Of a stretch of 64,000 nt of DNA, positions 41,727 to 64,000 are shown piece by piece (position 1 is the stretch's first letter; every line of letters begins with the position of its first letter). The notes beneath the pieces were generated by a model. The model saw only the letters and a program-made list of their open reading frames with translations. It ran no database searches and was not told the origin of the DNA. Origin of the DNA: Diacronema lutheri. Taxonomy: Eukaryota > Haptophyta > Pavlovophyceae > Pavlovales > Pavlovaceae. The DNA lies in contig JAGTXO010000027.1 in the NCBI GenBank assembly GCA_019448385.1, positions 393,507-457,506 on the forward strand, written 5' to 3'. The position numbers and the translations under genes are program-made.

Positions 41727-41771
<45 letters not shown>

Positions 41772-41947: not shown

Positions 41948-42764
41948 CCAGTGGCGCGCACGTGCACGTGCGCTAACTGGACGTCGAGCGTGTGCGCCTT
42001 GTCCGCACGTGTGCACTCACGTGCGTCTGCGGCGATCTGCCCGGCGTAGTAGTCCGCGCGCGCGGGAGCCGCGTCGGCAGTAGGAGCAGGATAACGTACT
42101 TGCGCCTGACGAGGACGGCGAGAAGTGCGGCTTTTCGCTCGGGGTCTACCATGCCGCCGAGGTTGGCGCTGGCGCGCGTGAGGCAGTCGGAGCGCGCTGG
42201 GCCCGGGTTGAAGGCCTCACCCCGGGGGACGGGAGGATTCAAGGCGCCGAGCCGCTGCGGGTGCGGCGGGAGGCCCCGGGCGGGTGTGCTAATGCGGCTC
42301 GATGGCCGCCTGCCGGGGGGGGGGGGGGGGGGGGGGAGGGGGGGGGGGGGGGGGGGGGGGGGCGTTGGGCCGCCCGCGGAAACGGAGGTGAGCGTGTGGG
42401 AGCGGCGCGCGTCGGCGCGCGCGGCTGGCGTGCAGCACGGATAAGTCTTGTGTGGACTTCGCGGGGCGGATCCCGGTGCAGGGATTGCCGACGTAGGCCG
42501 CGAGCGCGAGCAGGGCGGGGATGAAGACGGATGATGGGGTTGGGGCCAAGGCCGCCGCACCCGCAGCTATCACGGTGGCAGCGACCGCCACGGTCAGTGC
42601 GAGGCTCGCGTGGCCGCTGCGCGGGCAGCTCGCCCGCCAGGTCCAGGAGGGCCGGCCTGCGGCCTCAGTGCCCAGCGTTGGGCATGTCAGCGTCTGCGTC
42701 TGCGGGCCCGCCACTGCGATGGCGCATTGAGCCTGGCGCACCAAAACGCAATCGGTCCGCCGAT

Positions 42765-42806
<42 letters not shown>

Positions 42807-44711
42807 CGAGGCGTGCGCGGGGGCTTGGGGTGGGCTCCGGGTGCCGGCGCTGTGCCAGCGGCGGGCTTGGTTGACGCCGTCTCGCCGGGGCCCTTGCGCC
42901 TTGCGGCGCGAGCGTCGCGGAGGGGCGTCGGCTGCGCTGGCTCCGCGTCGGCGGTGGCGTGGGGCAGGCTCTTGTGGAGGGCGGAGCGCTCGCGCACGAG
43001 TCGGTTGCCAAGGCGGGCTGTCTGCGTGCCGTTGGGCTGCGCTTGGGCAGGTAGGACCTGCGGCCTCGGGGGCGGGCGGGTTTTCGTGTTGGGCCAGGCG
43101 GCAACGCGCACCGGCCGTGTTCGCGGCCGGCAGGCGGACGTCCGCAGCGGGGCGGAGAATGCGGGTGAAGCGCTTGCACGGGCGCGGTTCGCACCTGGCG
43201 GCCAGGCGATCACGAACCGTTGGGTCGCCCGGCTGTTTGGTGGAGCCGAGGGCAGCAAGGATAGCGAGCTTGGCCGCCTCATCGGTGACGAGCGGCACTG
43301 TTGCCCAGCTCTGTACCTCGAAGCCCTGGATGTGCAGGCGTCGGGGAAGTTCCCGGCAGCGTCGCCTGCGTCCGTCGAGAGGCGGACCGAAGTCGCGCCC
43401 GTGCCCCCGTTGGCGACACCGAGCTCTCGCTCGTTCACACCGGCCCGCCGACGCGGGCGCGTGGTGCGCGCGCGTTGGGTGCGTGTCTGCCTCGAGCAGC
43501 GTGCCCAGTCGCAGTGTGGGCGCGTGTCCGTCTGCCTCAAAACGCCACGTGGAGGGGAAGGCGCGGGGCGGGCTCGCCGAGGAGGTGCCGCCGCTCGCTG
43601 CCACCCGGCGCGGGCTCGGGGCAGCCGTCTTCGGGTGCCGCGCTCTTCGCGCCATGCACGAACGTTCCGCCGCGCTCGCAGCGCGCGAGCGCACACACAG
43701 AGCGCGCGGCGACCCCGGCGGGGGCAGTGCGTCCCGGTGGCACTCGCGGGCGCGCGCCTGGCCTGGGCGCAGCTGGGCGCGTTGCCGCCCGCGCAGCGAG
43801 CCGCCCGCGCGCCTCGCCGCGCGCGCGCTTCGTCGCACGCGTGCGCCCTGCATGCACGCGCACAGCGCGCGGCGGCTCGGCGCAGTGCAAGGCAGAGCGT
43901 GCTGCAACGGTTGCGAGGGCGCGCACGCGCGGCGCGGCGCGCCCCTGTGTGGTCGCCTGCGCGCGGCGCGTGGTCCGGACGCAGCTCGGTGGCGTGATGC
44001 CGTTCGTGCAACACAGTGCGCGTGAGAGCCGCACGTGCACACCTGCAGTGCAACGCGGCATTGCGCGCGTTGCGTGGGCGGAGCGCGGCTGGATGTGCTT
44101 GAGGTCGCGCAGCATGCCGCGCGCCGCGCGCTGTGCGGCGCAGCGAGTCGGCCATGCCCCTGGTCCTCGTCTCCGGGGGGGGGGGGGGGGGGTGGTGGTG
44201 GCAACCAGGATCCGCCAGCGCGTGGTGGGCGCCGTCCAACTCCCAGCCAGGATGCGCCCCGTTCTTCCCCGACACTCTCCGTCCAAACCCGCCGCCCAGC
44301 CTGCCGCCGCACCCGCCGCCAACGCCGCCGCGCACCCATCCGCCGAGCTCACCTCGCGCGCGCTCGCGCTCACGCTGCGCGACGAGGCTGCGCAGGCCGG
44401 CGCGCGGCCGTGCAGAGCAGCGCAGGCCGGCGCGCGGCCGCGCGCGCGCGCTCACGTTGCGGCCGCGCAGCGAGCTTTCGCCGCGTCGCAGCCCCTCCGA
44501 GCAGCCACGATGCACGCCCCCGGAGGACGTTGGCCGCGCTCGGAGGCCGCGCTCGGGCGCGCAAAGAGAGGCGGCGCGGGCAAACGAGTAGGCTCGGCGC
44601 GCTGGCGGGTCCTGGTTGTGGGAGAGCGGGGCATTCTCCAGGGCATCATGTAAATTCTCCCAAGTATCATCCGGGCCGCCATCCGGACACTGACGTGCCC
44701 ACAGTCTGCAG
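41948..44711. other. Stretch with long poly-G runs and no supported gene
   Basis: Poly-G runs lie at 42315-42362 (one interruption), 42766-42806 and 44175-44192. Both strands have long open frames, for example minus-strand 42687-44339 and plus-strand 42531-43997, but none shows a family motif. The part near 43.2-43.45 kb looks the most protein-like on both strands. I leave it unassigned. Confidence 0.4.
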
Positions 44712-47700
44712 ATGGAGGACTCCGTGAAGGACGCTTTGCCCGGCGGGCGGGGCGGCTCGGACAGTTTCTCGCTGGCCCTCAGCACCATTCTGTCGCCGGG
44801 AGATACCCACCCCCACGTGGTCCCATCCACTTGCCTCATCGCCCTGCTGCGTTACGCGGATTTCGGCACGAGCAGGGTTAGGGTGGGCGACACGGGGTGC
44901 TCGCAGCATGCGCTCAAGGTGGCGCTGCGCAACCTGCGCAAAGCATGCGCGGATGCGGACCGGTTTGGGCAGGTGCTCGTGGTCGTGCTACCGCTCTGCC
45001 TCCGCGCGTCCAGCGGCCTCGTGCACTGGACGGCGGCGTACCTGCTCCTCGCGCCGCCCGCGCAGCGCGGCGCGCCGCCCGGCGCCGCGCTCGCCCTGCT
45101 CGCCGATTCGCGCACCTTGGGCAACGGCGAATCGGCGTACGCCACGGCGGCCGGCGTGCTCATCAAGAAGCTTGCGCAGCGCATCGGCAGAACAGCGCCG
45201 CCCATCGATGCCTTCAAGGCGCCCCCGCAGAGTGGGGCCGCGTGTTGCTTCGCCGCGGCAACAGTCGCGGCCGAGGTCGTGGCGAGCGCATCGACGCTCT
45301 ACGGCCGCCGCGCGAGTGTCCTTGTCGACATCAAGAAGGCTTTGGACGCGCGCCTCGCGCGCCTCACGACGGCCGCGTACGAGGAGACCCGCGCGCGCAC
45401 GCTCCGCGCCGCCATCGGCGCTCTGCTCGGCGACCGCGCCAGGCGCTTCGGCCCGTTCACCCGCGAGGCCGCGCGGCTCGCCGAGGCCGCGCGGCTCGCC
45501 GAGGCGTGCGATGCCAGTGTCGGCGGATCCGCGCCCGACGGGCTGCTGCAGGCCGTCGAGGCGGCGCTGCGCGCGCCCGACGACCGCATCGCACGCACGG
45601 CCGCGCTCGACGCGCTCACGGGCGCTGCAGGCCGCGCGCTGTCGACGGCGGCCAGGCCGCGCGGCGCGGCGGCGCCAAGGCCGCCGTCGCGAGCGCCACC
45701 GCCGCGTGCGCCGCAGCGGCGCGCCGCCTCGGCGTGGGGGCCCCGACCATTCAGCAGCCTCGGCGGGGGCGAGGGCGACGGGGACGATGGCGACGCCACC
45801 ACCGCTGACGACGGGGAGGGCGCGGAGGACGGGGACGACGACCCCGCGGGCGCGGCGGCTGCGGCGGTGGCGACGGGCACGGCGGCGACGAGCGCGGTGG
45901 CGGCGGGCGCGGCGCCAACCTCGCCGGCGGCGGCGGACGGCGGTGGCTCGGCGCCGCTCGAACGCCGCTGCGTCTACACTGCGCCTGATGAGGGCGACGC
46001 GGACGCGCGCGTGTACGACGCCAAGGACCCCGAGCAGCTAAAAGCGGGCAGGGCGCGGCCACGGGCGAACAGCGGGCGCGCGCCCGCCGTGGTCGACACG
46101 CTTTTCGCGCACGCGACGGGCACGATCGTCACGCGGCAGCGCACGGAGGGCGTGACCGGCGCGGGCATGCACCACCTCGCCGCCCCGACGCAGGGCGCGG
46201 GGTACGGTACCGTCGTGCGGGCCGAGCTGGGCGAGCCCGGCTTCGCGGGGACGACATGGCACATGACGTCGGGCGTGGAGAACCAGCCGCGCGCGGTACG
46301 AGCGGCCGCGCGCGCGTACGCGCACGACGGCTGGGGCGGCGTGTACAATGCGCACGAGGACTTTGCCGCCTTCGAGGGCTTGCCGCGGCTCGCCGCGCCC
46401 GAATCGCTCGCGGCCATCGCCGGCGGGTCGGCGGACGCGGTGTTCTGCTGGCGGTCCGGCCGGTCCGTCATCGGCGAGGTGACGACGGTTCACTTCAATG
46501 GCGACCGCGCCGCCGCCATCGACCACGCGCGGGCGCTGCGCGTCAGGCCCGATTGGCGCTCGCAGCCCAGGATCTACGAGGCGGCGTGCGGCGCGGAGGG
46601 CACGGTGCTGCTCGTGTGGGTCGTGCCCGACCGTCACAAGAACCCGCGGCTGGACTGGGCGCCGATTCTCGTCGTGATCCACCTGCCCGCCGACCCCGAC
46701 TGGCTCGCGCGCGCCACGCCGGCGATCGCGAAGGCGCGGCGCGAGGTCGAGGACGGACGCGCGCGCGCGGAGGCGCGCGGCGTGCCGCAGCACCTCGCCT
46801 ACACGCTGAGCCCACGCTTCCGAGGCACCGCGCCGCGCGGAGCCGCGCGCGTGCCGCCGCGCCTCGGCGCGAGCGACGCGCGCGAGGCGCGCGCGCTCGC
46901 GGCGCTCGAGCCGGCGCTCATGTTCGCGCCGGCCTGGCGGCGCGCGGTGCGCGCGGCGAGCCGCGCCCCCGGCAGTGGCGCCGCGGCCGTCGAGCGCGCG
47001 CTCGCGCGCCTGCACAACGCGCTCGAGCCCGATGACGAGAGCGCGCCCGAGTCGACGCGCGTCGCGCCGCTCGCCGCCGCGCTCGAGCAGTCGGCGGGCT
47101 GGCCGGCGGGCACGGCGCGCATGGCGGCAAGCGTGACCAAGGGCCCCGGCGTCGGAGATGGCGCAGGTGGCGACGAAGTGACCAAAGTGGAGGAAACGGC
47201 GAAGACGAGCGGCGACGGCTGCACCGGCACGCCTCCTCTGCGCCCGGCCGCGCGCGCGGCCGGCGCGGCGGACGACGGAGGGGCGGCGGTCGTGGCGGGC
47301 GTCGAGGGCGAGCGCGACGCACTCGCCAAGACGGGTGCCGGCGGCTGCGACGACGACGCTCGCGAGCCGCTGTCGGCCGGCAAGCCCGGCGCACTCGCCG
47401 CCGCGGCGACCGTCGGGGGTCTCGGCGAGCTCGTCGGCAGCCTATGCGCGTGGCTGGCGCGCGGCGCGGCTGGCGGCGCCATCGCGGCCATCTCCCCCGG
47501 GACGGCCGCGCGCGGAGCAAACGGCACGCCGCAGCGCGCCGAGCCGCCGGCCGCCGGCGATCCCGTCGCTCCGCACGCGCGCGTCGCCGCTGCGGCGCCC
47601 TTGGCGGGCAGCGCGGCGGCGCCGTCGTCGGCCGCGCGCGACGCGCAGCGCGGCGTCGCGGGAGTCGACGCGGCCGCGCACGCGCACGCGCGCGACGGCA

Positions 47701-50700
47701 GGCGGGCGGCACGGCGGATGCGCGAGCACGAGGGGGCGGTGCACAGGGCCTTCCGCATGTCCCTCTGGCGCGACGCGACGTTTGTCGAGTTCGTTGAGAA
47801 GCTGCGCCCCGACGGCGGCGCGCAGCTGCTCGCGCGCGAGCCCACGCGGCGCGCGGCGGCGGTGCTGTGCGAGCTCGCGCGCGGCCGCGACGGCGCGAGC
47901 GGCGCGGCCGGGCTGCTGCACGAGATGAGAGCCGCCGATGCGCGCGCGCGCGAGGCCGCCAAAGCGGCGGAGGCAGCGCGGCCTGCGCACGGGACGCTGC
48001 GCATCGTGGCAACCGTGGCGCTGGGCGGTGCGGTCTTCGCCGGCATGTCAGCGCTGGTCGTTGCTTGCGCGGCGCGCACGGCGACCGGTGCGCTTTTTGG
48101 GGCCCGCCGCCCGCGGGCGGCCGCGCGCGGAGCCGACGACGCGCTCGGCACGCTGCAGCGCGCCGAGCCGCCGCCCGCCGACAAGGGCAAGCGCAGGCGC
48201 GCCAGAGCCAACGACGACCCCGTCGACGCGGCGCGCAAGGCCGTGGGCAAGGCGGAGGGCAACTGCCGCAAGGCAGCCCGCCGGCTGCACCTCGCTGCAC
48301 TGGGCGAGGAGGAGGCGCAGCAGCGCGTGCTCGACGCCGAGGCGGCGGAGCAGCTGGCGCGCTCGCGCGAGCCGGCCGGCGGCTGGGTAGGCAGCGCGCG
48401 CGCGCGCGCGCGCGCGCGCGCCCCGCCGCGCGCGCGCCCGTCGATTGGCGTGCGCGCAGCGCAGAACGGCGCGCCAGCTCCGTCACCTGCGCGCCGCCGC
48501 GCCCGTGCCCCTCGCGCGCAGGGGCGCCCTGCGGACCTGCGGCTGCAACAGGCGCACTTTGGCATGCGCGAAGATGCCGACGCGGAAGTGCGCCGCGCGC
48601 ACGAGGCGCTGCGCCGGGCGAGACAGGGTGTGGCGTGCGCCAAGGCCAGCGTGCGGCAGATGGAGGCGGCGTTGCTCAACGCGACGCGCTGCGCCACCGC
48701 GGTGCTCGCGCCGCGTGGCGTGCCGGAGGGTGACGAGCAGGCCGCGGCGAGAGAGCAGGCGGCGCTGGACCGGGAGGCGCCGCCGGCCGCGCAACGCGCG
48801 GCGCCGACGGCGCGCTCGCCCTCGGAGCCGCCGTCCGAGTGGGGCCCGCCAGCGGTCGGCCGGCGCCCGACGCCGCGTGCACTGTCGCACGCCGCGGGTC
48901 GCGGGGACGACAACCCGTTTGCGCCGCTCGCAACCGTCAGCGGCGATTGGTCGCCCACGCCGAGCTCGCGCTCGCCGTCCTCGCCGCCGCGGCAGCCGCC
49001 GTCCGACCGCCGCAGCGCGCAGCGTCGCAGCGCGCGCGCGCGGCCGCCGAGGCCGACCGTTTCGCCCGAGGACGCGCTCGCAGCCGAGCGCCAGGCGCGC
49101 GCGCTGTCGGAGCAGGCGGAGCAGAGGCGCGCCAAAAAGGCCGCCGCCAAGGCCGCGCGCCGCGCCGCGCGCGCCGCCGACAAGCGGACGGCGCGCGTCG
49201 TCCACGCGTGCGTAAGCGCCGCCTTGCGGCGCGTCTGCACGAGCGTCGCCACGGGCACGCCGCTCGCCGTGCTCCGCGAGCGCGCCGAGGGGCCGCGCGC
49301 GCCGAAGCCCGCGCCCGCGCCGCCACGCCGCGCAGCGGACGGCGGCCGCGCGCTCCGCCACGCGCGCCGTGCGGCCGCCGCGGCGGCGGAGCGCGAGGCG
49401 GCGGTGGCGGCCGACGCCGACGAGCGGTTCGAGCGGCAGCCCTCCGCCGCCCGGTTCGACGGCGGCGATGGCGGCGGAGGCGGCCACGTCGAGGCGAGCG
49501 CGCGACCGCGCGCCGGCGAGGCCGGCGAGGCTGGCGCGCACGGCGCGCCTGGCGCAGCGGGGCCCCCGGCGGCGTCGCTCGCGTCGCGCAGCCCGTGTGA
49601 TGCGCGCCGCACGGCACGCCTCCCGCACGCACGCGCCGCAGCCACCTGCGCACGCAACGGCGGCTGGGGTGGCAACGTCGGCGGCGACGTGTGCGGCGGT
49701 TGTTTCGGCGGCGGCGGCGTCCGTCGCGACGCCTGCGGCGGCGGCGACGCCACCTGCGGCTGCGGCGATGGCGGCGTCGGTGCTGGCGCTGGCGAGGCCC
49801 CTGCACACGGTGCGCCGGCGCGCGCGACGGCGTCGCGCTTGCTGCGCTTGCTCGGCGCGCCACGCGCCGTGCTCGGTGCGATGGCGCACGCCGCGGCCGT
49901 GTTGGCGCGCGGCGTGGCCGCAGCCGTCGCTGGCGTGCGCGCCGCCGCGCGCGCCGTGCGGCGCGCGCGCCGCCGAGCGCCTCGCGCGCGCCGCACGGCT
50001 GCGCGGCGGGCTCGCGGCCCGCCGATGCGCGACGTCGACGGCGCCCTGCGGCCCTCGCCGTCCTGGTTGCGCACACGCCTCGTCTGCGGCCGGCGCCTCG
50101 CGCCTCTGCGCCGCGCGGGCGCGCGCCCGCCGCCCGCACACGCCGCGCCGAGTTCCCGCGCGCGCGCTGCGCAACCCGACAGCGACGCGCCGGCGTGCGC
50201 GCCGCGGCGCTCGGCGCCTGTCGGTGCGCCGCCGCGCGCGCGTGGCCTGCGCGCGGCGCGCGCACGGCGCTTCCTCGACGTCGCCGGCCGCGCGGCGCGG
50301 AGCGCGCGCCTCGGCGCGCGCATCACGCGCCAGCGCACGCCGGGTTCGCCATCGGAGCCCTGCACGGCCGAGAGCGGCGACGGCGCGGGCGCCGGCGGCG
50401 TCGGCGCGGCGGCGCCTGGCGCGGCGACGATGCGCGCCACCGGCGCGCGCGCAGCGCGCGCTGCGGCGGCGGCGGTCGGTGGCGCCTCGCGTCTCGCGCG
50501 CCGCGCGATGGCAAGCGCCGCCGCCGCTGCCACCTCCATCGCCGGCGCTGCCGCCTCCACCGTCGCCGCCGCCGCCGTTGCCATCGGCGCGGCCGTCACG
50601 TCACCGGCGTTCGCCGCGGCGCGCGGCATGGCGGCCGCATGCGTCGCTGCCTGCGCCCGCCCCACCGCCGCGCAGGCGGCCGCGTCGCGCGCGCTCGGCG

Positions 50701-52969
50701 CGCTCTTCGTGCTCGTCGACGCGGCCGACGCGGCGGGCGACAGCGACGCCGCGCTCGGCGCGCTCGCGGCCGCGGTCGACGCGACGGAGCTGCGCCCGCC
50801 GCCGGCCTTTTGGCGCGCGGGCCGCGCCGCGGCGTACGCACCGCGTCCGCCGCCCCTCGACTCGGCGCGGCCGCGCTACAACCGGCGCGCGCGCGCACCT
50901 AGCCCTCCCGTCGCGGCCGCGCGGCGCAATCTCGCGCGCGCGGTGCGCGAGCTCACGCGCGCCGCGCGCGCTGAGCGCGAGCGCGCGCCGGCGCCGCGCG
51001 GCGCGCGCGGCGGCGTGCTCCACGCGCTGCGCGCGTCGCTCCCCGTGCACGCGCGTGCCGCGCTCGGCACGGACGCGGAGCTGCGCGCGGACATCGCCGC
51101 GTTCGCGCGCGCGCGCCGCGAGCTGCACAGCCTCACCGACGCCGAGGTGGCGGCGCTCGCGCGCCCGGACGGGCCGCCGCTGCCCGTGCGGCTCGCGTGC
51201 ACGGCGGTCGCGCGCGCGCGCGGCGTGACCGTGCTGCTCGACATCGTGCCGCGCGGCGGCGGCGCGCCCGAGCGGCTCGTGTGCCGCGCCCGTCGCCGCG
51301 GCGCCGCCACGCGCACGCCACGGCCGACAGCCGCCGTTATCGCGCGCGCGCCTTGCATAGCGGCGCGCGTTGGCCACACTGAGCCGGCGCGCGCGTGCGC
51401 GGGCGGATCGATCGGGGTCGCGCGCCTCCGTTCAGCGCGCCGCCGCTCTTGGCGTGGGGCGCGGCTCGACGTGCACACCCGCGAGCGGCTGGCCACACCG
51501 GTGCCAGGCCACGTCGTGGCCTGCGCCGCCGCCTCGGCCATCGGCGCGTGCGTCGCTCGCGCGCGGCTTGGGCTTGCACGGCTGGCGCGCGCGTGGCCCT
51601 GCGCCTCCGCTCCACTGGCCGCTGCTGCTGTCGCCTTCGCGCCTGCCGCCGACGGTGTTTTCTGCGCCCCGCTGGGCGCTCCTGCATCCGCCTTCGCGCC
51701 TGCCGCCGACGGTGTTTTCCCCGCCGCACTAGCCGCTGCTGCATCCGCCTTCGCGCCTGCCGCCGATTTTCCCGCCCCACTAGTTGCTCCTGCATTCGCC
51801 TCCGCGCCTGCCACCGACGGCGTTTTCCCCGCCCCACTAGCCGCTGCCGCTGCCGCGTCCGCGCCCGCCGCCGCGGGCGCGTCTTCCGCCCCACCAGCCA
51901 TCGCCGCCGCGCCCGCCGCCAACGCGCGCACCGCCAACGTGCCCGTTGCCAACGAGGCTACCGCCACCGAACCAGCCGCCCTTGAGCTTCCCCTCCAACC
52001 CGCCAACTCGGCGCTGCTTGCGTGGGCGGGCGACGCGGCTGCGCGCCGGCTGGCCGCCGCCGCCGCGAGCGCCGGCCTCCCGCAGGCAGAGGTGGAGCGC
52101 ATCGCCAGCGGCGACATGCTCGCCTCAACCGTCGACGCGTGCTGCGAGGTCGTGCTGCGCGTGCACGGGCAGGCCGGCGGCGGGCATGTCTGCCACGTGC
52201 CGCTCGCCGCGCAACCCGCGGTGTTTCAGGACGACGCCGAGCGCGCCGCGCTGCTGCACCGCCTGCGCAGCGAGGCGACAACGCAGGCTGTCATCGGCGT
52301 GTGGAGCCCGTCGGACGAGCGCGGCGGCGCGGGCGGTGACGACGGCGCGCAGCTCGCCTCCGGCCATTTCACCGCGTTGCGCCTTGTGCGCGTCGCGCGC
52401 GCGGGCGAGCATCGCTACGACGCGGTGCTCGTCGACACGCTCGCGTCGCCCTGCAGGCAGGCGCTCATGCTCGCCAAGGCGATAACTGCCACGCTGCACG
52501 CGGCGGGTCTCGACATTTCGCGCGTGCGCCGCGCGCTGCTGCTCAACGAGGCGGCGCAGCGTGGCGCGACGTGCGGCCTCGCGATAGTGGGCGCGCTCAA
52601 CGACGCGCTCGCCGCGGCGGGCTGCTCGTCCGCGCCGCGCACGTTCAGCGTGGCGGACATGTACGCTGTCGGCGAGCGCCTCCGCGTCGCGCTGACCGGC
52701 GCGGCCAGCGATCGTGCGCCGGGCGGCGTCTGCGCGGTCACGAGCGCGGTGCGCGGCGGGGGCAGCCCCGATCGCGCCGAAACGCCGCCGCAGACGCGCG
52801 GCGCCAAGGCCGCCGCTGGCGTCACCGCCGCCGCCACCGCCGCCGCCACGCCGCCGCCGCCCGCGCTGGGCGCCGCCGCCGCCGCCACCGCCGCCGCCGC
52901 CGCTGCTGCCGCCGCCGTGGCCGCGCCGCCACCGCCGCCACCGCCGCCGCCGGCCGGCGACGCGGGCGA

Positions 52970-53042
<73 letters not shown>

Positions 53043-56000
53043 GCCGCGCGCACGTTCTTGAAGCTCGCGCCCAGGGCGCGCGCGGCCGCCTCGGCGCGTG
53101 AGGCGTTGCGCGCCGCGTGTGCGCGCGCGGACGCGGCGGCGTCGTCACACGCGTCGGCGCCGCACGCGCCCGCCGGTGCGCGCCGCCGGCGGCGCGCGGG
53201 CGCAGGCGAGCTGGCGCTCGCGGCTGCGCGCGCGCTCGCCTCGACGGAGCACGGCGATTTGACGGACGACGCGCTCGAGGCCGCCGTCGAGCAGGAGCTG
53301 GGCGACGAGCGCGGCCAACTGCTGCTGTGCACGCGGGGCGCAGCGGCGCAAAGGCCCGCGCTTTGCCGGCTCCTGAAGCACGCGTGCGCGTCGGCGCGCG
53401 CGGCGAAGCGCGCGCAATTCACGGTGTTCGTCGTGCGCGCGGCCACGCGCGGCGAGCGGGGGGGCGCCGCCGCGAGGCGCGTGGACTCGGTGGTCGAGCT
53501 GTCGTGCGCGCTGCACGAGAAGGCGGGCGCGCTCGGCGGCCTCCAGAGCGTCTGTGTGCGTGGCTTTGCCCTCGAGCGCCGCCGGACACTCGACGGTGGC
53601 GCCGAGGCCGGCGCGTCCGCCATCGGCCAGGACGAGCAGGTCGAGGCAGAGGCGGGCGAGGCGTCCGTCGCCGGCGTGACGATGGCCAAGCAGCTGCGTC
53701 AGTTTGCCGAGCAAGCTGCCCGCGACGACGTGCTCTTCCGCGTCGCCGTGTCCGAGGCCGACGCCCACGCCCGGCTGGCGCGCGTTGCGGGTGACGATGT
53801 CGGCGCGTACAGCGTCGTGCTCGCAGTCGCCGGGCTCGTCTGGCTGGCCAAGGCCGACGAGGTTGCGCCGGCGGCCGCCCGGTCCGCCGCCGCGCCGCCC
53901 GCCGCCCCGCCTGCTGCCGCCACGTCCGCCGACGCCGAGCGCGACGCCTCGCCTTCCGACCGCCTGCGCGCGCTGACGCTCGCCGTGCGAGTCGCGCTCG
54001 CGCGCGGCGTGCTGCGCCACCTCCTCGCCGACGCGTCGCCGGGCGCGTCCGCGACCGCTGGCGGTAGTTGCGCGACGCCCGTCGAGGCGGCCGCGTCCGA
54101 CGCCGCGCCGCCCGCCACGGGCGTCGTGACGAGTGGCGTCGCGGCGGGCGCTGTGGCGGCCGCACCGGCTGCTGCGGGCGGTGCGACGGCGGGTGCATCG
54201 CCCATCACGCGGCCGGCGAAGCGCGCGCGGCGCACGCTCACCGCCGCTCCAGCCGCCTCGGCCGTTGCGGCCGCTGGAGGCGCACGCGCTGGCGCACGCG
54301 GCGCGGCCGGCGCGCCTCGCGCGCGCGCCGCGCGCGCGCCGGCCGAGTACGTCTGGCTTGCCATCGCGCGCCGGATGCTGGCGGCGCGACACGCGGCGGC
54401 CGCGGGCGGCGACTTTGTCGCGTCGTGCGTCGCCGCGATGCAGGCCGAGTACGGCGACGGCTGTGCCGTCGTCGTCGGCGACGCGCCTGATGACGCCTTG
54501 GTCGAGGCTGCGGCGGCGGCGCTGCTCGAGGGCAAGCACGCGGCGGTGAGCCTCGGCTGCGTCGACCGGCCGGCGGTGCTCGTCGTGCAGCGCGCCGTGG
54601 ACGCGCCCACGTCGCGCGTGCACGGGTGGTGCGCGCACGCGGCGGGCGCCGCCGAGTTTGACGAGGGCGCCGCGCACGGCGTGTTCAACGCGATCGTCGA
54701 GCGCGCGTGGGCGCTGCGTCCGGACCCGGCTGACGGCAGCCCGCCGCCCACGCGCACGTGGGAGGTCGAGCAAATCGCTGGCGACGCGCCCGACCAGGCG
54801 GGCGTGGCCGCGCTGCGCGTGCTCTACGCGCTCGTCGCGGCGCACGGCCGCTACCGCTCGGCCGCCGCGCTCTTTGGCGCGATCGCGCAGCTGCACGCGC
54901 CCGACGCCGCCGGCGCGCGCGCGGAGGTCGTCGCGGCGGCGTGCGCGGTGCCGCACGGCGCGCGGCCGGGCGCCGCGCCGGCGGCCGCGCGGGACGACGC
55001 GAGGGAGCGCGCATGGGAGGGCGCTCAGATCGCCGCGCTCGCCGTCGGCGCGGACGCTGCGCGCAGGCGTGTCGCGCCCGTGCGCGCGCTCGTCGACGCG
55101 CTCGGCACGCCACCGACCTCGGCGATCACGGGCGGGCCGGCGGTCCGGCTCGCGGGCGCGGGCGACGGCGGCCACGGTGCACGGTGGGTGGGCGGGCAGG
55201 CGGCGACGCCCGCCGAGCAGCTGCCGAGGGAGCTGCTGCGCGCCTACCACGAGGCGGTGCTGTGCGTCACGCCCGGCAGCCTCCAGCTCGGCCCGGCGGC
55301 GCTCGACGCGGTCACGCGGCCGCGCGAAAACGACACGCTGGAAGGCCTCCTCGCGCGCGTCAGCTGGCAGTGCGGCGCGAGGGCGAGCACGTGCGCCATG
55401 CTCGCCACGTTTTCCGAGCAGGCGGGCACCGGCTCGCGCGTCGCGCTCAAGGCCCTCCGCACGAGCTCCGACCTGGCCGGGCTGACGGCGGCTGCGGTCG
55501 GGCAGCAGGCGCCGCAGACGCCGCCGCCGCCGCTGCTCGTGATGCTCGGCCGCTGCCCCAGCCCGCTCGTCGGCGGCGGCCTCTTCCCGCCCGACCGCGC
55601 GACGGGCGAGCCGGCGGTGCACGCGGCGACGTCCGAGCTCGCCGTCGAGCTGCTGCGCGACGCGCGCGCGCTGGCCGGCACGGACGGGCGGCTCGTCGTG
55701 CTGTGCCTCGAGGCGTCCAACCCGCTCTGGTTCTGCCCCAAGGTGCGCGAGCTCGAGCTGCCGCGGACGCGGTCGGACGGCGTGCGCGCGTCCGGCTGCA
55801 CCTGCCCTGCGACGTGCAGCGATGCGCGCGGCGCGGCGGGTGGCGCTGCCCGCGGCGCATCGACGCGGCCGGCGGCGCGCGCGATCAACAAGGCGGTGCT
55901 CGACCACTTCGTCGCGCTTTTCGGCCGCGAGGGCTTCGCGACCTTTGAGTTTGCGGGCGGCGGCGAGGCGAGCTGGCTGTGCGACAGCGCGGCCGGCACG

Positions 56001-56211
56001 ACGACCGTCGCGGCGTGCGCGTCGCTGCCGCCGCGCATGGGCGATGGGCAGCTGGCCATCCGGCGGCACACGCTCGGCACGGGCGCCGACGCGCCGGCGC
56101 ACGCCGTCGTCTCGCTCCGCGTCGCGCACGTGAGCCACGCCATCCGCCGCGCGGCGGACGACGGCGGCGCGCGCGCCGAGCGGATGGCGCGCGCCGCGCG
56201 CGCGTTCTGCG
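44712..56211 (+). CDS. Giant reading frame with two Ulp1-like cysteine protease domains (part 1 of a long unit)
   Basis: One frame is open from the ATG at 44712 to 57770, and looks coding up to about 56.2 kb (about 3830 codons). Residues 60-190 form an Ulp1/C48-like domain: H105 (GLVHWTAAYL), D132 (LLADSRTLG), Q173 and C178/C179 (PPQSGAACCF). A second domain has H2552 (SGHFTALRLVRV), D2575 (AVLVDTLAS), Q2616 and C2621 (EAAQRGATCGLAIVGAL). A region near residues 500-720 (GGSADAVFCWRSGRSVIGEV) faintly recalls a PD-(D/E)xK nuclease. Near residue 1105 there is one hydrophobic span (VALGGAVFAGMSALVVACA). Residues 1200-2290 are Arg/Ala/Pro-rich with low complexity. Ulp1-like proteases accompany several eukaryotic transposon groups. 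At this GC content length is not evidence; the paired H-D-Q-C sets are. Confidence 0.55.
51630..51885 (+). repeat. Degenerate tandem repeat, unit about 57-60 nt
   Basis: Four to five units encode variants of SAFAPAADGVFPAPLAAA in the giant frame, with one unit shortened. It lies just before the second Ulp1-like domain. Confidence 0.75.
52971..53039 (+). repeat. (GCC)n microsatellite, about 23 units
   Basis: A pure trinucleotide run encodes a polyalanine tract in the giant frame, next to shorter Ala and Pro runs (52820-52960). Confidence 0.9.
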
Positions 56212-59200
56212 ATGTGGCGGCCCGCGCTGCGCGTCGACGCGATCCTGGCGGAGGTGCCCGAGGACCGCCCGACGGGCACGCCCTTCCTTGGCGGGCTGCT
56301 CAAATTTTGGGACAAAGACCACGGGAGCTCGACGGCGCCAGCCACGCTCGCGCTCGGAGACGTGCGCGAGGCGGCCAAGCGGACGGCCGACGCAGCGGCC
56401 GGCCGAGCGGACGAGGTCCCTGCGGCTGGCCGTCCGCAGGTCGCGGCGCGCGCGTGCGCTGGCGCGATTGGCGGCGGCGCGGGCGCGGCGGGCGCCTCGG
56501 ACGCTGCGCCGCGTGCACTGGCGGGCGCGTCGGGTGCGCGCACGGACGGCGGCCCTGCCGACGCACCGCGCCAGCTGGAGAGCCGCTACGGCGAGGCGAG
56601 CAAGCTCGACCTACCCCAAGATTCCACTACGGGCCGCGTCCTCGACGCTCGCGAGGCCCAGGACCGCGCGCGCGTGCCTGCTGCGCCCGACGGCACAGCG
56701 CTGCGCCGCGTGCTCGACGCCGTCGGCGCGGGCGCGCCCGCGCAGCGCAGCCCGCGCTGGCACGACGAGCGATGGGAGGAGGTCACGGGCAGCAAGGTTG
56801 GCGACGTCGTGAACGACAACGCCGGCGTCGCGCACGAGACGCTCACCGACGAGTACGTGCACCGGCGGCGGCGCGAGGTGCGGACCAAGGCGACGACCGC
56901 GGGCATCCTCGGCGAGGCCGTCGCGCTGCGCAAGCTAGCGGCCGCGTACGGCATCACCGTCGTGTGCAACCTGCCGATGGTGCGTGCGGACCCGCACGAC
57001 AAGAGCGCGCCGTTCGCCTTCTCGCCGGACGGGCTCGCCATCCTCCCCGAAAACAACGAGCAGGTCCTCGTCGAGGTGAAGACGCTCACCAAGGCGGGCG
57101 CCACGGCGCACGAGGACGGGCCGCCGCAGCCGCACCGCGATCAGCTGCAGCTCGGCATGCACGTCCTCGGCGTGAGCAAAGCGCTCTACGTGCAGTACCT
57201 CAGGCACGAGGACCGGATCGTCGTGCACGTCGTGACGCGCGGCGCCGGCTGGCTTGCATTCGCGCAGCCGAGGGTGCAGGCCTTCTGGGCGCGCGTCGTC
57301 GAGCGGCGCGCGCGGCTCGAGCGCGCGCGCGCCGACCACCCGGCTGCGAGCCGGCGGCACCGGCGGCAGCAGACGCCGGCCGGGCCGCCGCTCGTGCTCG
57401 CGCTGGACGGGCGCATCCCCGCCGCGCGCGCCGCCGCGCTGCACGCCGTCGCGCACGGCACCGCGAGCGCGGCGGCGGTGACGGCGGCGGCGGCGACGGG
57501 CGACGCGACGGCGTTGCAAGACGCGATCGCGGCGCTGCGCGCGCCCGTCGGCAATGCGGCGATCGACAGCGCAGCGCGTGCGGAGCGCGCGGCCGTCGAG
57601 CGGGCGATCGCGTACCTCGGGCAGCCGGCGGGCGACGCCGCCGCCCGCGGCACGGCCGAGGCGGCCGAGGAGGAGAGGACGGTCGACGCCGACATCTGCG
57701 CGTTGCTGCACCAGCTCGGCGCGAGCGTGGCGCACGTGCACGTCGAGGACGCGGATTGCGTCACGCGTGAGCACTGGGGCGAGGCGGTGCTCGCTGCAGC
57801 GGACGACCCGTCGAGCGCCCCCGCCATTTCGAGCGTCATCGTCGCGCACATCGTGCGCCTCGCCGGCTTTGGCGTCGAGCTCCCGCAGTCGATTCGCGTC
57901 GCCCCCAGCACGGCCGACTGGCACGAGGGCTGGCTCGACGTGCAGTGCGTGCTGCTGCGCACGCGCCGGCGCGGGCGGCGCGACGACGACTTTGTGGCCG
58001 TCGTCAGGCGCGGTGGGCGCTGGTTTGCGTGCGAGCCCGGCCGCGCGCGGCGGCTGCAGTGGCGGTCGGTCCTACGCCGCGCGCGCGGCGGCGTCGACGG
58101 GACCGGCGAGGAGGCGTTCGCGATCGTCTACGTGCGGCGCGGCGACGCGGCCGGCGACGCGGCTGGCGACGCGCAGGCCGCACGGGCGCGCGGCGGGCGC
58201 GCGCGCAGGCGCACGCGCGGCGGCACGCGCAAGCGCAAGCGCGGCGCCTCCGCCGGGCTCGAGGCGGCCGCGCCCGCCGGCGCGCCGGCTGCCGCGCCCG
58301 CCGGCGCGCCGGCGGGCGCTGCTCACCGCCCGCCCGCCATGCGCGCCACGGTCGCCGCGCGCACCACGCGCTCTGTGACCGACGCGCTGCACTCGGCGCC
58401 TGCCGCCACGGTTGCACCTGTCTTCGACTGGCGCGCCGGCCGCCCGCCCCCCGCCGCTCGAGCCCGCCACCCGCGGCCGCGTGGGCGCGCGCCACCGGGC
58501 AAGGCCTGGGACAGCGTCTCGGGTGCGTGGGCGGACAAGCCGACTGGTGCTGCCGTCGCCGCCGCGCCGCCGCCGCTGCCGCCCGCCGCCGCGCCGCCGC
58601 CCACCGCCGCGCCGCCGCCCGCCGCCGCGCCGCCGCCCGCCGTCGCGCCGCCGCCCGCCGCCGCGCCGCCGCCGCCGCCGCCACCGGCGGCGCTCGGCCG
58701 CCGGCAGCACGTCGGCGCGGGCGGCAGCGCGGCGGGCCGGCGGCTCGCGGCCATCGCACGGCGGCAGCGCGGCGTGCGCGCGCCGCCGCCCGCCGCGCGC
58801 TTCCTCGCCACGCTGCCGCCACCGCCACGCGACGGCCTCGCGCGCACGAGCAAGCAGGCGCGCGCGAGGCGCAACGCGGACGGACGGCCGGCGCACGCGC
58901 GCGCGGCCAACGCGCGCGCCTTCTACCGCGGCGTGGAGCTCGGCGTGCACGCGACGCGCGCCATCGTCGACGCGCGCCACGCCGACCTGCCGCAGGCCGT
59001 CTTCGTGGCGGAGGCGCGGGCGATCGTCGCGCGCTCCGCCGGCGGCGGCGCGCTGCTCGCGCCGGACGACGTGCGCGACCTGTGCGACGCGCAGACGGAC
59101 GCCGATCGCGCTGCGATCTGGGCGTCGGTGGGCGCGCACGAGGCGACGCGCATCTTCGCGCTCGTCACGCGCAACGCGAGCTTGGCGGGCGCGGCGCTGC

Positions 59201-59698
59201 TCGTGCTGCACACGCCGGCGGGCGCGCCGGCGCGCGCGCTCGGGCTCCTGGCGACGCGCTCGCGCGCGCCGTCGACGGGCGCGCCGCGCGACGCGCACAG
59301 GGCGCTGGTGCAGCGGTTGGACGTGCTGATGGACGCGATCGCCGCGGCGCGAGGCGCGTCGCCGCTCGAGCTCGAGCTCGCGCTCGCGCCCGAGCCGCAG
59401 AGCGCGTGCAACGCGCGTGCGGCCGCGCTGCTCTGCCTGCAGGCCGTCGCGGACGCGAGCGGCCGTCCCGCCGCTGAGGACGCGCTGGCCGCGCTCGACG
59501 ACGCGCGCGGCATCGACCGGCACTGCCACGCCGTCCGGCAGCAGATCGAGGCGAAGCTCGCGTGGCGGCGCGCCGACGGCGCCGTCGGCGTTGACGGCGC
59601 CGACGGCGCGCCCGCGCTCGCGCCTGCCGCCGCACCGCCGGCGTGCGCGCCGGCGCACGCTGCCGGCGAGGCGGCGGTCGACCAGGCGATCGTCACGC
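56212..59698 (+). CDS. YqaJ-type PD-(D/E)xK nuclease segment (part 2 of the long unit)
   Basis: Coding character moves one frame (+1) near 56.21 kb. An ATG at 56212 (MWRPALRVDAILAEVPEDRP) could start a separate protein, or the step could be a frameshift. Counting from that ATG, the nuclease core has E235 (GILGEAVALRKLAAAYG), D273 (FSPDGLAIL), E288 and K290 (VLVEVKTLT) and Q311/Q313 (HRDQLQLGMHVLG), then ALYVQYL. This is the lambda-exonuclease/YqaJ arrangement, as used in viral and phage recombination. Downstream, about 57.95-58.15 kb, DDFVAVVRRGGRWFACEPG followed by EEAFAIVYVRR resembles the last strands of a USP with its catalytic histidine replaced. After a proline-rich linker, 59.1-59.5 kb (ALLVLHTPAGAP, APEPQSACNARAAALLCL) looks like a degenerate Ulp1-like domain. 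Confidence 0.55.
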
Positions 59699-60860
59699 GG
59701 TGTGCGCGACGCGCTGCGCGCGTGGGCGACGACTGGCACCGCGCCCAGCGCGGCGGTGCTCGACGACGCCTGCGCCGCGTACACGGCCCGCGCACGCGCG
59801 CGCAAGGACGCGCGCACGGCGCTGGGCCCGACGCGCGCGGCCGAGCTGCTCGCCGCGGCCGCGCGCGGCGGAGCCGACGGGGCGGATGCCGCGCGCGCGC
59901 TGCTCGGCGGCACGCCGCGCCTGCTCGTCGTGCTCCTCTGCGTGCCCGTCGCCGCGCCGTCCGGCGAGCCGCCGCGCCCGGTCGGGCTGCTCGTCGCCGA
60001 CCGGCCGACGGACGACTCGCGCCCGGCCGCGCTCGTGCGCTACGACTTTGCGCCGCTCGACGCGGACGTGGCCGTCGCGGTCGGCGCGCATGCCGTCGCG
60101 CTGGCCAGTGCGATCTGGCCGCTGCTCGCGGCCGAGGGGGAGCCGCGGCCATCGCCCGTCGTGCGCTCGCAGCCGCGCGGCGGCGACGATGGCGCGTGTG
60201 CGCTCGCAACGTTCGCGTGCCTCGACGCGCTGATGACCGCCAGCGTCGGCGCGCACGGCCTCGCGGGCGGCGCGGGCATGCTGCCCGCGCTGGTCGCGCG
60301 AGGCGCCGCGGCCGCCCAGCGCGAGCGGCAGCTGCGCGCGGCCGCCGAGAGGCTGGGCGGCACGGTCGCTGGGTGGCCGGACACGGGCGCGAGCGCGGCG
60401 GGCGCGAGCGTCGACGAGGAGGCGCGCACGTACGAGGTCGAGGCGGTCGTCGACGAGCGCCGCAAGGCGGGCAAGAAGGTGACGTTCCAGTTCCGGATCA
60501 GGTGGCGGGGCTACGACGAGAGCGCCGACACGTGGGAGCCTGAGGCCAACGTGAGCAGCGACCTCGTCGCCCAGTTCCGCAAGACGCGCGACGAGCAGAA
60601 GCGGCGCGCGGGCGGATCGGGCAGCGGCAGCGGCGGCGCGGGCGCGGCGTCGGCATTGGCGTCGGCGCCGCTTCGCGCGCACGGCGAGTCGGGCGCCGCG
60701 GGCAAGCGCGCCGCGGCGGGTGCCGCCGCGAGCGCGCGCGACGCCGCGGGCGCGCGCGCGCCGAGCGTTCCCCGCGCGCGCGGCGTCGAGCGCGCGCGCG
60801 TGGACGAGCCCCGCTGCGCCGAGCGCGCGCGCCGCCGGCGGCGCGACGGCGCGCACGCGC
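59699..60860 (+). CDS. Degenerate Ulp1-like domain plus chromodomain (part 3 of the long unit)
   Basis: A second +1 step near 59700 brings in VRDALRAWATTGTAPSAAVL and then LLVADRPTDDSRPAALVRYD with SQPRGGDDGACALATFACL, an Ulp1-like D and Q...C pattern lacking a clear histidine. At about 60430-60590 there is a complete chromodomain: TYEVEAVVDERRKAGKKVTF, QFRIRWRGYDESADTWEPEA, then DLVAQFRKTRDEQ. The three cage aromatics (Tyr of YEVE, Trp and Tyr of RWRGY) are present, so binding of a methylated histone lysine is plausible. A basic Gly/Ser/Ala linker (about 60600-60860) leads into the Fanzor. Chromodomains in integrases of chromoviruses steer insertion to heterochromatin; a similar role is inferred here. 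Confidence 0.7.
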
Positions 60861-63435
60861 GGCAGCGTGCTCCCGGGCTTCGTGGTCAAGCGCTCGACGC
60901 TCAACGCGGGGCCGCAGGCGGTGACGGCGCAGCCCGGTGCGCGGAAGGAGCTGCGGCGCATCGCGGCGGCCGTGCACAGGCTCACGACACAGGCGTACCG
61001 CGTCATCAACAAGGTGGTGCGCGACGAGGCTGCGGTGGCGAGCGCGCAGGCCGTCGGCGCGGCGTCGGGCGGCCCGTCGACCAGCGTGCACACGTCGACC
61101 ACGATGGACAAGGGATCCGTCCGTGCGATCTTCTCGGCCATCGGCTGGCACAAGGACGAGAGCACGTACGGTGCAGCGCCGCGAGGCAAGCCCGCCGAGC
61201 AAGCCGCCGCGCAGACCAAGGCGGCGACGGCGCGCGCCGTCGGCGAGATGGCCGAGGGCGTCCAGCCCGTCTGCGCGGTGGGCCTCACGGAGATCCTCGA
61301 GGCGGAGGCGACGCAGGTGTCCACCGCGTGCCTGATGCACCCATCGCGCGTCGTGAACGGGCTGCTCCGCGACGTCGTCCGCGCGGCAGTCGAGCGCGAC
61401 GAGGCGCTCGTCGCGCTGCCCGAGATGCAGCGAAACGCGCGCGTGCGCGAGCTGTGCGAGCGGCTGCTGCGCGGCGACGTGGAGGGCGCGCGCGTCGGCT
61501 GCCCCGCCGCGCTCGACCGCCACCTGCCCGACATGGTCCTCCACAAGATCGACTACAAGTGCACGCCCACGAAAAGGTGGAACTACGACCGGCACACGAC
61601 GCGCTACTTCCTCGTGCAGATCCGCACCCTGCAGCACGTGGCCGAGGGGCAGGCGCTGCTCTGCCGGCTCGCGCACATCCACACGCAGCTGACCGGACGG
61701 CCGCCGCGGTACAATGTGGCGCCGCTGCGCACGCACAATGTGCGCGCGAGGCGTGGCTGCCGCTGCCGCCGCCGAGCGCCCAAGCGCGCGCGCCGCCGCC
61801 GTGCGCGCCGCCCCGCGGCCAGGTTGGTCACGCGCCCGCGCGCTCGCGCGCCGCGCGCTGCGCGCAGGTGCCGCGCAACGTGCGCCTCGCCGCGAGCGCC
61901 ATCTGGGTGACGCTTTCGGATGACGAGCGCAAGGAGCTGCGCGCGCGGCTCAAGGCGCTGGACCTGCGCGACCACGATGGCGAGCCGATCAAGTGGACAG
62001 GCACAAACGGCAACACCCCGCCGATGTCGGACGTGCGCGTCAGGTACGCGGTCTTTGCGACGCGCTTCGACATCTCCAACCGCGTCTTCGACTACGCCGG
62101 GCGCGAGCGGCCGCCGGCCGATCTGCCGTGGCACGCGCGGCGCTCGTGGGTTGGCCTCGCGCCGCTGCCGCGCGTGCCGCTCCCGGGCCGGCAGCCCGTC
62201 AAGTCGGTGGTGACAGATGGCGTCGCCGTGCACGCCGTCGGGACCGTCCTCGTGCCGAAGGCGCAGGCGCCGGCCGGCGGCTCGGGCGTCCTGCACCGCT
62301 GGCGCCGGCCGGACGGGCGCATCGCCGTCGCGCTCGGCTCCGAGCTGCGGCGGGCGATCGACGTCGAGGCGGCGGTCGTCGTCGCGGCCGACCAGAACAT
62401 GGGCAACATCACCACCTACTCTGCGCACGTCGGGCGGGCGGCCGTCTGGCGGCAGTTCACGCAGCGCGCGCGCGCGCGCGCCGCGGGCTTTGCGCGCGAG
62501 ACGGCCAAGACCAACGCGGCGCGGCGGCGCGTGCGCACCGACGGGCGCGGCGAGGAGTTCAGCGTGGAGGCGGACGAGGCGCGGCTTGGCGAGGCGCACA
62601 GCGCCAAGGTGCTCGACGCGGGCAAATACATCGCCTTCCACCGCGAGAGCGCGCGGGTGCGCGGAGCGCGCCGCCGAGCACGTGTACGACGCGCCGGCGC
62701 GCCGGAAGGAGCGCTGGCGGCGCGACAGCGGCGGGCGGTCCAACGCGGCGCGCGTCGCCGAGGCGCTCATCGCGGCGCACTGTGTCGACGGCGTGACGCG
62801 CGACCGGCTGCTCGTGTGCGTGGGCAAGTGGCTGCGCGACCACAAGGGCGCGCAGCCCAAGGGCGCGCCGCCCGCCTTCCAGGTGGGGCTGCTGCGCGAG
62901 CTGCGGCGGCGCGGCGTCGCGGCCGTCTTCGTGCCCGAGCCGTACACGTCGATGCACTGCTCGATGCCGCGGCTCGCCAAGGGCGGCAGGCTGCAGCGCT
63001 GCGGCGCGGAGCTCGCGCAGAACCCGCGCCTGCCCGTGGCAAAGGGCGGCACGCGCACGGTGCACGCGCTCGTCATCTGCCCGGCGTGCAACGGCGGCAA
63101 GAAGCCCGTGCACCGCGACTACAACGCCGCGCGCAACATCTTCTACGACGTGCACGACATGGCGGCGCACGCGGCCGGGCGCGACACCACGTCGACGCCT
63201 GAGCGCTTTGCCCTCGTGCTCGCCTGGTGGGCGCGCGGCGAGGTGTGGGAGCGTGAGGAGCGCATGGTGCACGGCCGAGGGCGACGACTGCGACGACGAG
63301 TGCGACGGCGACGACGAGGGCGACGACGAGGGCGACGACGACGACGACGACGATGGCAGCGGCGACGGCGGCGGCGGCGAGGGCGACGGCGACGGCGACG
63401 GCGACGGGAGGCGGCGGCGGCGACGACGACGATGA
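60861..63435 (+). CDS. Fanzor (eukaryotic TnpB-like RNA-guided nuclease family)
   Basis: The N-terminal part starts GSVLPGFVVKRSTLNAGPQA and includes HKIDYKCTPTKRWNYDRHTT. A 128-nt GTGCGCGCG...GCGCAG intron (61740-61867) joins RTHN to VPRNVRLAASAIWVTLSDDE in phase. The RuvC core has VVVAADQNMGNITTYSAH (RuvC-I Asp at 62390-62392), RLLVCVGKWLRDHKGAQPKG (RuvC-II region, no acidic residue at the canonical place), VFVPEPYTSMHCS (a Glu at 62937-62939 beside the TSxxCS zinc-ribbon start), and ICPACNGGKKPVHRDYNAAR with the RuvC-III Asp at 63117-63119. This matches Fanzor proteins, which cut DNA with a guide RNA made from the element's end. +1 steps occur before 60861, near 62657 and near 63285; the last leads to an acidic tail (EGDDCDDECDGDDEGDD) and a stop at 63435. 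Confidence 0.85.
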
Positions 63436-64000
63436 CGGCGGGGGAGGACGGCGGCGGCGACGGCGGTGGCGACGACGGCGGCGGGCGCGGCGGCGGTGGC
63501 GGCGGCGGCTCTCGCGCCCGCACCCCCCGCCCGCGGAGCTGCCAGCGCAGTGCCGGCGGCGGCAGCGCGCGCGGGCCGAAGCGCGGCCGGCGTGACGCAC
63601 GGCCGAGCCGCGCAGCGGTCGACGCTTTGCGGGCTTGCCCAGGTCGCGCGCGGCTGGCGACGCGTGCCGCGCGCGGCACGACCGTGCACGCCGCCACCCG
63701 TGGCCGAGCGCGCCGCACCAGCCGGCCCGCTCCAACCGCCGTGCGGATCACGGACGCTCGCTACGGCTCGTCGGCGCGCGTCACCTGCGCCGGCGGCCAC
63801 GGCGCCGTCTGCTCCGGCCCTCGTCGCGAGCAGCCCGACCGCTGCTCGCCGCCCGCACGCCGCCGCAGCAACGCTGCGCGTCGTGCTCCCCCGCTCGCCA
63901 AACGCGAAGAGCTCCCTCACAAGGACGTCCTTCCGAACGGCCCGCGCTGCACTCGGGGCGCGATCGTGCCCTGATCGGATTTGGCTTGACCATCTATACG
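63436..64000. other. 3' flank of the Fanzor gene, no gene seen
   Basis: GC-rich sequence with Arg-rich shadow frames only. In known Fanzor and TnpB loci the guide RNA comes from the 3' end of the gene and the adjacent element end, so this is where one would look. I cannot identify a boundary or a fold by eye. Confidence 0.4.

Follow-up and report, generated by a model that had tools for sequence, protein, structure and literature searches.

Fanzor nucleases, the eukaryotic relatives of TnpB, are understood through a model shared with TnpB, in which an RNA from the right end of the element carries flank sequence as its guide (PMC3627910, PMC10711439, PMC10432273), and Fanzor cutting at the sister chromosome could aid the spread of single-stranded-DNA transposons (Nature 2023, PMC10432273). 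A DPG motif in RuvC-I is near-exclusive in Fanzors and a glutamate stands six residues before the zinc motif, with a TDG in the wedge domain as the mark of Fanzor1 (NAR 2023, PMC10711439). Fanzors inside mobile elements are already known, among them the Fanzor1 of the Helitron and Helitron2 elements CRe-1,2,3 of Chlamydomonas (Bao and Jurka 2013, PMC3627910). Chromoviruses, which are Ty3/gypsy elements, carry a chromodomain on their integrase that steers insertion to heterochromatin marked by methylated lysine 9 of histone H3 (H3K9me; Gao et al. 2008 as cited in PMC12477314). In this study we analyse a window of 64,000 nucleotides from the haptophyte Diacronema lutheri (bases 393507-457506 of contig C14, which ends where the window ends, in a 43.49-Mb assembly of 103 contigs) and describe a mobile element of ~31 kb in which a chromodomain stands directly before a Fanzor1-like nuclease at the end of a predicted giant gene. 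This pairing is new as far as the literature searched extends: no description of it was found in a search outside which the 2023 Science Advances survey of Fanzors lies, and in PMC6338049 chromodomain and Fanzor are both mentioned, but apart.

The original prediction for this DNA had read a chromodomain (at about 60430-60590) and a Fanzor with RuvC-I, zinc ribbon and RuvC-III on one path, joined by a single-base frame step, and had likewise known of no such arrangement. Profile searches recover both domains: the chromodomain matches PF00385 well above the cut-off (Table 1), and the zinc-ribbon/RuvC-III region matches PF07282 with E 6.4e-6 and 26.7 bits in the window and with 27.3 bits in the reference copy C9 (copies are named after their contigs), barely exceeding the cut-off of 26.3. 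The single path also holds, for in all seven other copies read (C9, C1, C3, C4, C33, C12 and C71) the chromodomain (E 5e-13) and the N-terminal half of the Fanzor share one unbroken frame, which in C9 extends to 4,513 codons, compared with a longest frame of 2,148 codons in 300 trials with randomised sequences matched for trinucleotide composition. The frame step is present in the window, at ~60809, but is absent from all seven of these copies, and between the chromodomain and the predicted intron the other six show no insertion or deletion (indel) relative to C9.

A genome search with the Pfam Chromo profile returned 260 candidates, and 146 of the 150 matches listed score as copies of the element chromodomain; among 148 matches listed for PF07282, 113 belong to the element family by score and 35 fall outside it, the lowest few of which may be diverged members. 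Among the matches listed, 90 of the 113 Fanzor copies are preceded on their own strand by a chromodomain at a distance of 2,447-2,476 bp; 20 of the remaining 23 were fetched, 17 of them with a chromodomain at that spot (three with a chromodomain tryptophan turned into a stop, one with a cage tyrosine replaced) and three without. The outcome that the original prediction had set against itself, relatives in which the two domains never co-occur, is thus not what the D. lutheri genome holds, the two standing together in 107 of the 110 copies checked out of 113, a count of presence rather than of frame equality copy by copy. The chromodomain-Fanzor arrangement is real and is repeated in over a hundred copies. 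That the two are chance neighbours, unrelated decayed sequences united in one repeat, is an idea to which we give almost no weight; the window copy taken alone is broken in several frames, as that idea would have it, but the other copies are intact across the pair, which already refutes it, and the spacing in the 90 matched pairs is as narrow as stated.

A second D. lutheri Fanzor family (C9:378667, C71:710021 and C11:803083; L074, L076 and L075), 13 copies of which have an identical score of 43.9 bits among the matches listed, also places its Fanzor C-terminally in long frames, but differs in having the canonical DPG, TDG and alternative glutamate with both zinc knuckles complete. The element Fanzor aligns with it motif by motif at 26% identity over 334 positions (BLASTP, E 1e-8). 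Two of its long frames (1,410 and 1,076 codons, Fanzor included) contain no chromodomain on scanning, and the pairing therefore belongs to this element and not to D. lutheri Fanzors generally. A search of 5.8 billion proteins, which detects only relatives with short exact words in common and in which 8,000 candidates were scored, yielded no more than a 570-residue near-copy (98% identity, on a 2.4-kb contig) and KFE25_006464, an annotated protein of D. lutheri; when the query was reduced to RuvC-III (1,998 candidates scored), the near-copy alone came back. Of two queries against IMG/VR, one gave no pattern match and the other 43, none of which was confirmed.

The pair lies in a recently multiplied mobile element of which D. 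lutheri has well over a hundred copies. Its coordinates in the window were set by alignment to copy C9, and its end motifs recur genome-wide 204 times (5') and 159 times (3') at no more than 3 mismatches, with no match to a reversed control; judged by eye from the listed coordinates, distances from 5' to 3' ends group near 31.0, 26.3 and 21.5 kb. By BLAST, identity between C9 and seven other copies, that of the window included, is 99.1-99.7% over 14.6-23.7 kb, and the window copy matches C1 and C9 at 99.4% over 31.1 kb. Of the four listed Chromo matches outside the family, three were compared with the element and have at most low-complexity stretches in common with it. At 20 5' junctions TATATA is preceded 16 times by C, 3 times by G and once by T. 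Of 16 junction pairs, one has a target duplication in contact with both ends, and the duplication is not consistent; a comparison of the two ends found no terminal repeats, with no common 10-mer in direct and no common 9-mer in inverted orientation. Many copies finish exactly at contig ends, which had suggested telomeric insertion; this was rejected, contigs C32 and C49 stopping at the 5' end of the element, and breaks are to be expected where an assembly meets a near-identical repeat of 31 kb. Taken as 159 3' motifs of 21-31 kb each, the element may make up as much as roughly 8-11% of the 43.5-Mb genome. The genome paper assigns most annotated repeats to long terminal repeat (LTR) elements and long interspersed nuclear elements, and its main text contains neither 'transpos' nor 'Helitron' (PMC8379373). 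We found no description of this family, and it may represent a new class.

Comparison with known classes draws on Pfam scans of copy C9 at E 0.01, which covered 68 of the 73 frames of at least 110 residues in the first part (five remaining unscanned) and 58 of the 71 frames of at least 150 residues in the rest (7 of the 13 omitted being covered by other Pfam scans). Helitrons generally carry a PIF1-type helicase, as this element does. CRe-1,2,3 resemble it further in having Fanzor1, in belonging to an alga and in showing no consistent target duplication, but the D. lutheri element is far larger and has more 5' than 3' motifs where those elements have an excess of 3' ends (PMC3627910). Neither Rep/HUH nor Helitron_like_N was found in the 68 and 58 frames, although a very diverged Rep is possible, and the 5'-TC and CTRR-3' ends of Helitrons were not found at the 20 5' junctions or at 16 long 3' junctions. 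Mavericks/Polintons differ in having terminal inverted repeats, PolB, integrase and capsid, none of which was found here by the Pfam scans and the 9-mer comparison.

The original prediction had treated the two domains as a local unit starting at 59699. That position lies at a one-base difference (~59701) common to the window and C71, and the pair is instead the C-terminal end of a predicted gene of ~6,200 codons within the element. A (GC)n run differs by 2 bp in the window, which joins the frame that opens the gene (Table 1) to the next, giving a joined frame of 4,358 residues (44694-57770), the last part of which passes beyond another one-base difference. Frames containing the chromodomain have a median of 4,501 codons: 83 of the 146 reach at least 4,400 (seven of them exceeding 5,300), 19 have 4,000-4,399, 13 have 3,000-3,999 and 31 are shorter. 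The C-terminal half of the Fanzor, which in C9 lies in another frame after a predicted intron of 128 bp, has frames of at least 1,000 codons in 73 of 113 copies, of 600-999 in 34 and of fewer in 6. Relative to C9, the indels of C1, C3, C4, C33 and C12 within the giant frame sum to whole codons. In its last 15.6 kb the copy in the window shows 13 one-base differences (one more, common to other copies, is excluded), one of which recurs in C71; they are densest by the contig end, several falling in the C-terminal half and tail of the Fanzor, and could reflect either genuine decay or errors of sequencing where contigs end.

The proportion of guanine plus cytosine at the three codon positions is.82/.67/.91 in the giant frame,.73/.56/.95 from chromodomain through linker to the N-terminal half of the Fanzor, and.75/.54/.96 in its C-terminal half, as against.81/.91/.88 in the intron. 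In steps of 300 bases the favoured frame is +1 at element 11.7-15.5 kb, +2 at 15.6-28.8 kb and +1 at 28.8-30.6 kb, the +2 signal running to the splice donor and the +1 signal from there to the end of the Fanzor. Codon-position composition and the course of the favoured frame together suggest one predicted gene of ~6,200 codons. The original prediction had overlooked the predicted intron. KFE25_006464, which bears a piece of the element Fanzor, has the identical junction (PLRTHN/VPRNVRL), and since the annotation was made by BRAKER2 given RNA-seq alignments (PMC8379373) the junction is indirectly supported, not proven.

The nuclease bears marks of Fanzor1. VTDG is present in 8 of 8 copies read and aligns with the TDG of the second family; the acidic triad of aspartate, alternative glutamate and aspartate is retained in all eight, as is the string E-PYTSMH-C, which sets the alternative glutamate six residues ahead of the first zinc cysteine. 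The second CxxC reads CPAC, and RDxNAARNI is also present. In these features, in its carriage by a mobile element and in its predicted spliced gene it is like Fanzor1 (PMC3627910, PMC10711439), from which it differs in standing behind a chromodomain at the C-terminus of so large a predicted protein. It sits at the right end of the element, ~400 bp from the terminus, as expected by the right-end guide RNA model. The best relevant match in a PDB search with the Fanzor was Cas12f1 at E 0.42, which we do not count as evidence.

The chromodomain, judged by its sequence, is of HP1/CDY type: taken from copy C9, it matches the chromodomains of CDY, HP1, LHP1, MPP8 and Polycomb among PDB sequences, with a best E of 3.2e-9. 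The positions that we take to be those of the aromatic cage read Y, W, Y in seven of the eight copies, the stretch from C33 ending short of the pattern; a cage residue is lost in some decayed copies (L078, L079, L090 and L095). Like the chromodomain of chromoviruses, it lies on the C-terminal side of a polyprotein beside an enzyme that acts on DNA. The enzyme here is, however, Fanzor-like and placed after the chromodomain, and by Pfam scans and end comparison the element has no LTRs, reverse transcriptase or integrase. Outside the element, frames with two chromodomains (C69:981566 and 982265; L003 and L004) and a high-scoring chromodomain at C30:607158 (L001) are possible host HP1-like genes.

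Joining the role of the chromovirus chromodomain to the TnpB/Fanzor model gives the mechanism that we propose. The giant product would perhaps be cleaved by the protease-like parts of the element itself, releasing the chromodomain-Fanzor piece, which would use a right-end RNA, with flank sequence as guide, to cut matching DNA, its main target being the empty site that the element has left or targeted. Repair of the cut site would then copy the element, and the chromodomain would keep the nuclease on chromatin of the H3K9-methylated type that holds silenced copies or preferred landing sites. Taken whole, as a 31-kb element whose giant protein ends in chromodomain, linker and Fanzor1-like nuclease and which moves in this way, this is the reading we favour, at slightly better than even confidence. 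Of the anatomy we are very confident: the parts, their order, the frame shared by chromodomain and N-terminal half of the Fanzor, and the copy number are computed, the intron and the single gene predicted. A role of the chromodomain in chromatin targeting, argued by analogy, seems an even call, and RNA-guided cutting by the element Fanzor falls just short of one. The boldest form of the proposal, a self-multiplying element of a new class whose histone-mark reader is fused to an RNA-guided nuclease, such that cutting for homing would depend on silent chromatin as well as on a guide match, is tentative and on present evidence rather unlikely. If true, it would be a natural chromatin-gated RNA-guided nuclease; a natural fusion of this kind, which was not found in the literature searched, would show how eukaryotic elements fit a nuclease of bacterial type to chromatin, and editors gated by chromatin might be modelled on it.

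Several observations weigh against the reading we favour. The giant frame is not uniformly intact: 63 of the 146 chromodomain frames have fewer than 4,400 codons, C71 has two one-base indels inside it (the first kilobase of C71 lying outside the comparison), and C33 and C12, both copies that end contigs, have one-base indels in or near the C-terminal half or tail of the Fanzor. The coding signal fades or vanishes in low-complexity stretches, such as those at element 16.5-17.6 kb and 18.3-18.9 kb, and many windows of the scan give a signal on the opposite strand as well. Upstream of the chromodomain, 32 of 131 changes among seven copies are synonymous, compared with 28.7% expected by chance, and the most diverged copy read (2.1%) has 18 synonymous and 46 nonsynonymous changes, for a crude ratio of nonsynonymous to synonymous rates (dN/dS) of 0.97; no signal of purifying selection between copies was found in these two comparisons. 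The copies seem to drift neutrally after insertion, and the long open frame is most simply the trace of a recent ancestor that was functional. The protein searches and IMG/VR gave no homologue of the pair in any other named species, and the last 200 nt of C9, where a right-end RNA would lie, show no significant fold (z -1.31).

The catalytic motifs also tell against it. RuvC-I, which the original prediction recognised without seeing that the window departs from the other copies, reads DPN in those seven and DQN in the window, instead of DPG, and the first zinc knuckle is C-S-M-P without its second cysteine, a further cysteine standing 13 residues on. Because of these departures the cutting activity is uncertain, and the nuclease, having neither DPG nor a complete first knuckle in its C4 zinc finger (CxxC..CxxC), is on its motifs filed as a divergent Fanzor1-like protein and not as a standard member of Fanzor1. 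A catalytically inactive Fanzor, with which the polyprotein would simply bind DNA, guided by RNA or not, would account for these motifs, given how nearly exclusive DPG is in Fanzors (PMC10711439), but sits poorly with the acidic residues kept in every copy read; we regard it as fairly improbable.

Somewhat less improbable, though still a minority view, is that the one gene yields separate proteins, through cleavage between chromodomain and Fanzor or an internal Fanzor start, the two domains never forming one molecule. The element does have protease-like parts (a UCH match and Ulp1-like patterns seen by eye), the linker is rich in glycine, alanine and arginine, and a methionine lies within the N-terminal half of the Fanzor; but the frame stays open over the linker with a continuing, if weaker, +2 codon-position signal, and C9 has no methionine between the chromodomain and the Fanzor-like start, the first one available being placed such that ~75 Fanzor residues would be dropped.

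A last point against the favoured reading, and a further difference from Fanzor1 carriers, is that no recognisable transposase or recombinase was found in the Pfam scans. Together with the failure to find terminal repeats, the size of 31 kb, the PIF1 helicase, the YqaJ-like segment and the conserved domain upstream of the helicase, this could mean that the element is what is left of a replicon resembling a virus or a plasmid and not a transposon. We consider such an origin improbable: the scans found no capsid, polymerase or packaging family, the same ends recur at the 20 junctions read, and neither IMG/VR query brought up a relative.

The remaining parts are listed with the others in Table 1. 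In copy C9 the PIF1 helicase matches PF05970 (E 1.8e-24) and PF21530 (E 5.3e-13), with PF05970 again in the neighbouring frame (E 3.7e-14); the gene changes frame internally, for which an intron or a break are candidate causes. Its N-terminal domain of ~250 residues has free-standing homologues (P0004-P0008, in records marked lgn, jgi and ena) at 53-73% identity; a PDB sequence search with this domain gave nothing useful, and its structure model, with a mean predicted local distance difference test score (pLDDT) of 43, was not used. The YqaJ-like segment scores against PF09588 at E 3.2e-4 and 21.4 bits when taken alone from C9 (cut-off 22), at E 0.0087 in the window frame and at E 0.02 in the long C9 frame. 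One frame in the first 12 kb of C9 has a weak match to the HORMA domain (E 0.0082).

Table 1. Features of the element in the window (positions counted from the first base of the window)
Feature	Position	Strand	Basis
Whole mobile element, ~31 kb	32955..63998	+	BLAST against other copies, end motifs; 3' end is the end of contig C14
5' terminus, TATATA(C/G)GGCGCGG	32955..33018	+	20 junctions of other copies
Perfect palindrome of 18 bp in 5' terminus, GTACGACCCGGGTCGTAC	~33001-33018	+	sequence
Near-perfect palindrome of ~870 bp, 93.6% self-complementary	34953..35823	.	sequence, BLAST
Conserved ~250-residue N-terminal domain and PIF1 helicase gene	36396..38729	+	Pfam, copy C9
Ubiquitin-specific-protease-like (UCH) frame	40303..41322	+	PF00443 E 9.8e-9, 35.6 bits against cut-off 23.9, copy C9
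N-terminal part of giant gene, ATG at 44712	44712..48733	+	frame +1 coding signal; end from first long frame of C9
Ulp1-like H..D..Q..C pattern, first	~45030-45310	+	by eye only, without Pfam match
Ulp1-like H..D..Q..C pattern, second	52110..52713	+	by eye only, without Pfam match
YqaJ-like PD-(D/E)XK nuclease segment	56758..57199	+	PF09588, under Pfam cut-off
Chromodomain	60431..60583	+	PF00385 E 1.7e-12, 47.5 bits against cut-off 25.1
Linker of ~95 codons, Ala/Gly/Arg-rich	60584..60866	+	holds the window-private one-base frame difference
Fanzor N-terminal half (exon)	60867..61739	+	chromodomain frame in C9; GC by codon position; without Pfam match of its own
Predicted GT-AG intron, 128 bp, phase 0 (THN/VPRN)	61740..61867	+	GTGCGC..GCGCAG; lacks the codon periodicity of its neighbours
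Fanzor C-terminal half with acidic/Gly tail	61868..63595	+	PF07282, BLASTP; conserved to ~63270; stop placed from C9
Fanzor residues	TDG 62213-62221; RuvC-I Asp 62390; alternative Glu 62937; RuvC-III Asp near 63114	+	motifs
3' trailer and terminus, ..TTGACCATCTATAC	63596..63998	+	3' ends of copies; expected site of right-end RNA

The ~870-bp palindrome was found in all three copies read there (window, C1 and C9), and may be read as an inserted smaller element or as a hairpin. Detached from the element, window 6334-7893 holds an inverted partial copy, 82-92% identical to its 5' 1.6 kb (window 32954-34548), which would be a relative that is older or not autonomous. The genome also has 111 occurrences, at no more than 2 mismatches, of a different repeat end, GTCCTGACGTAAGCGCCGTTAGTAT; it adjoins the 5' end of the element at C27:47997 and C46:508992 and lies within its 3' flank at C4:196628, as if both favoured TATA-containing sites. 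Scans of the window for tRNAs and Rfam families returned none. Upstream of the element, window 28066-29850 contains a host-like gene for the large subunit of replication protein A, and the other genes of the first 28 kb encode GNT-I, Serinc, an SBF-like transporter and a SHIPPO-repeat protein.

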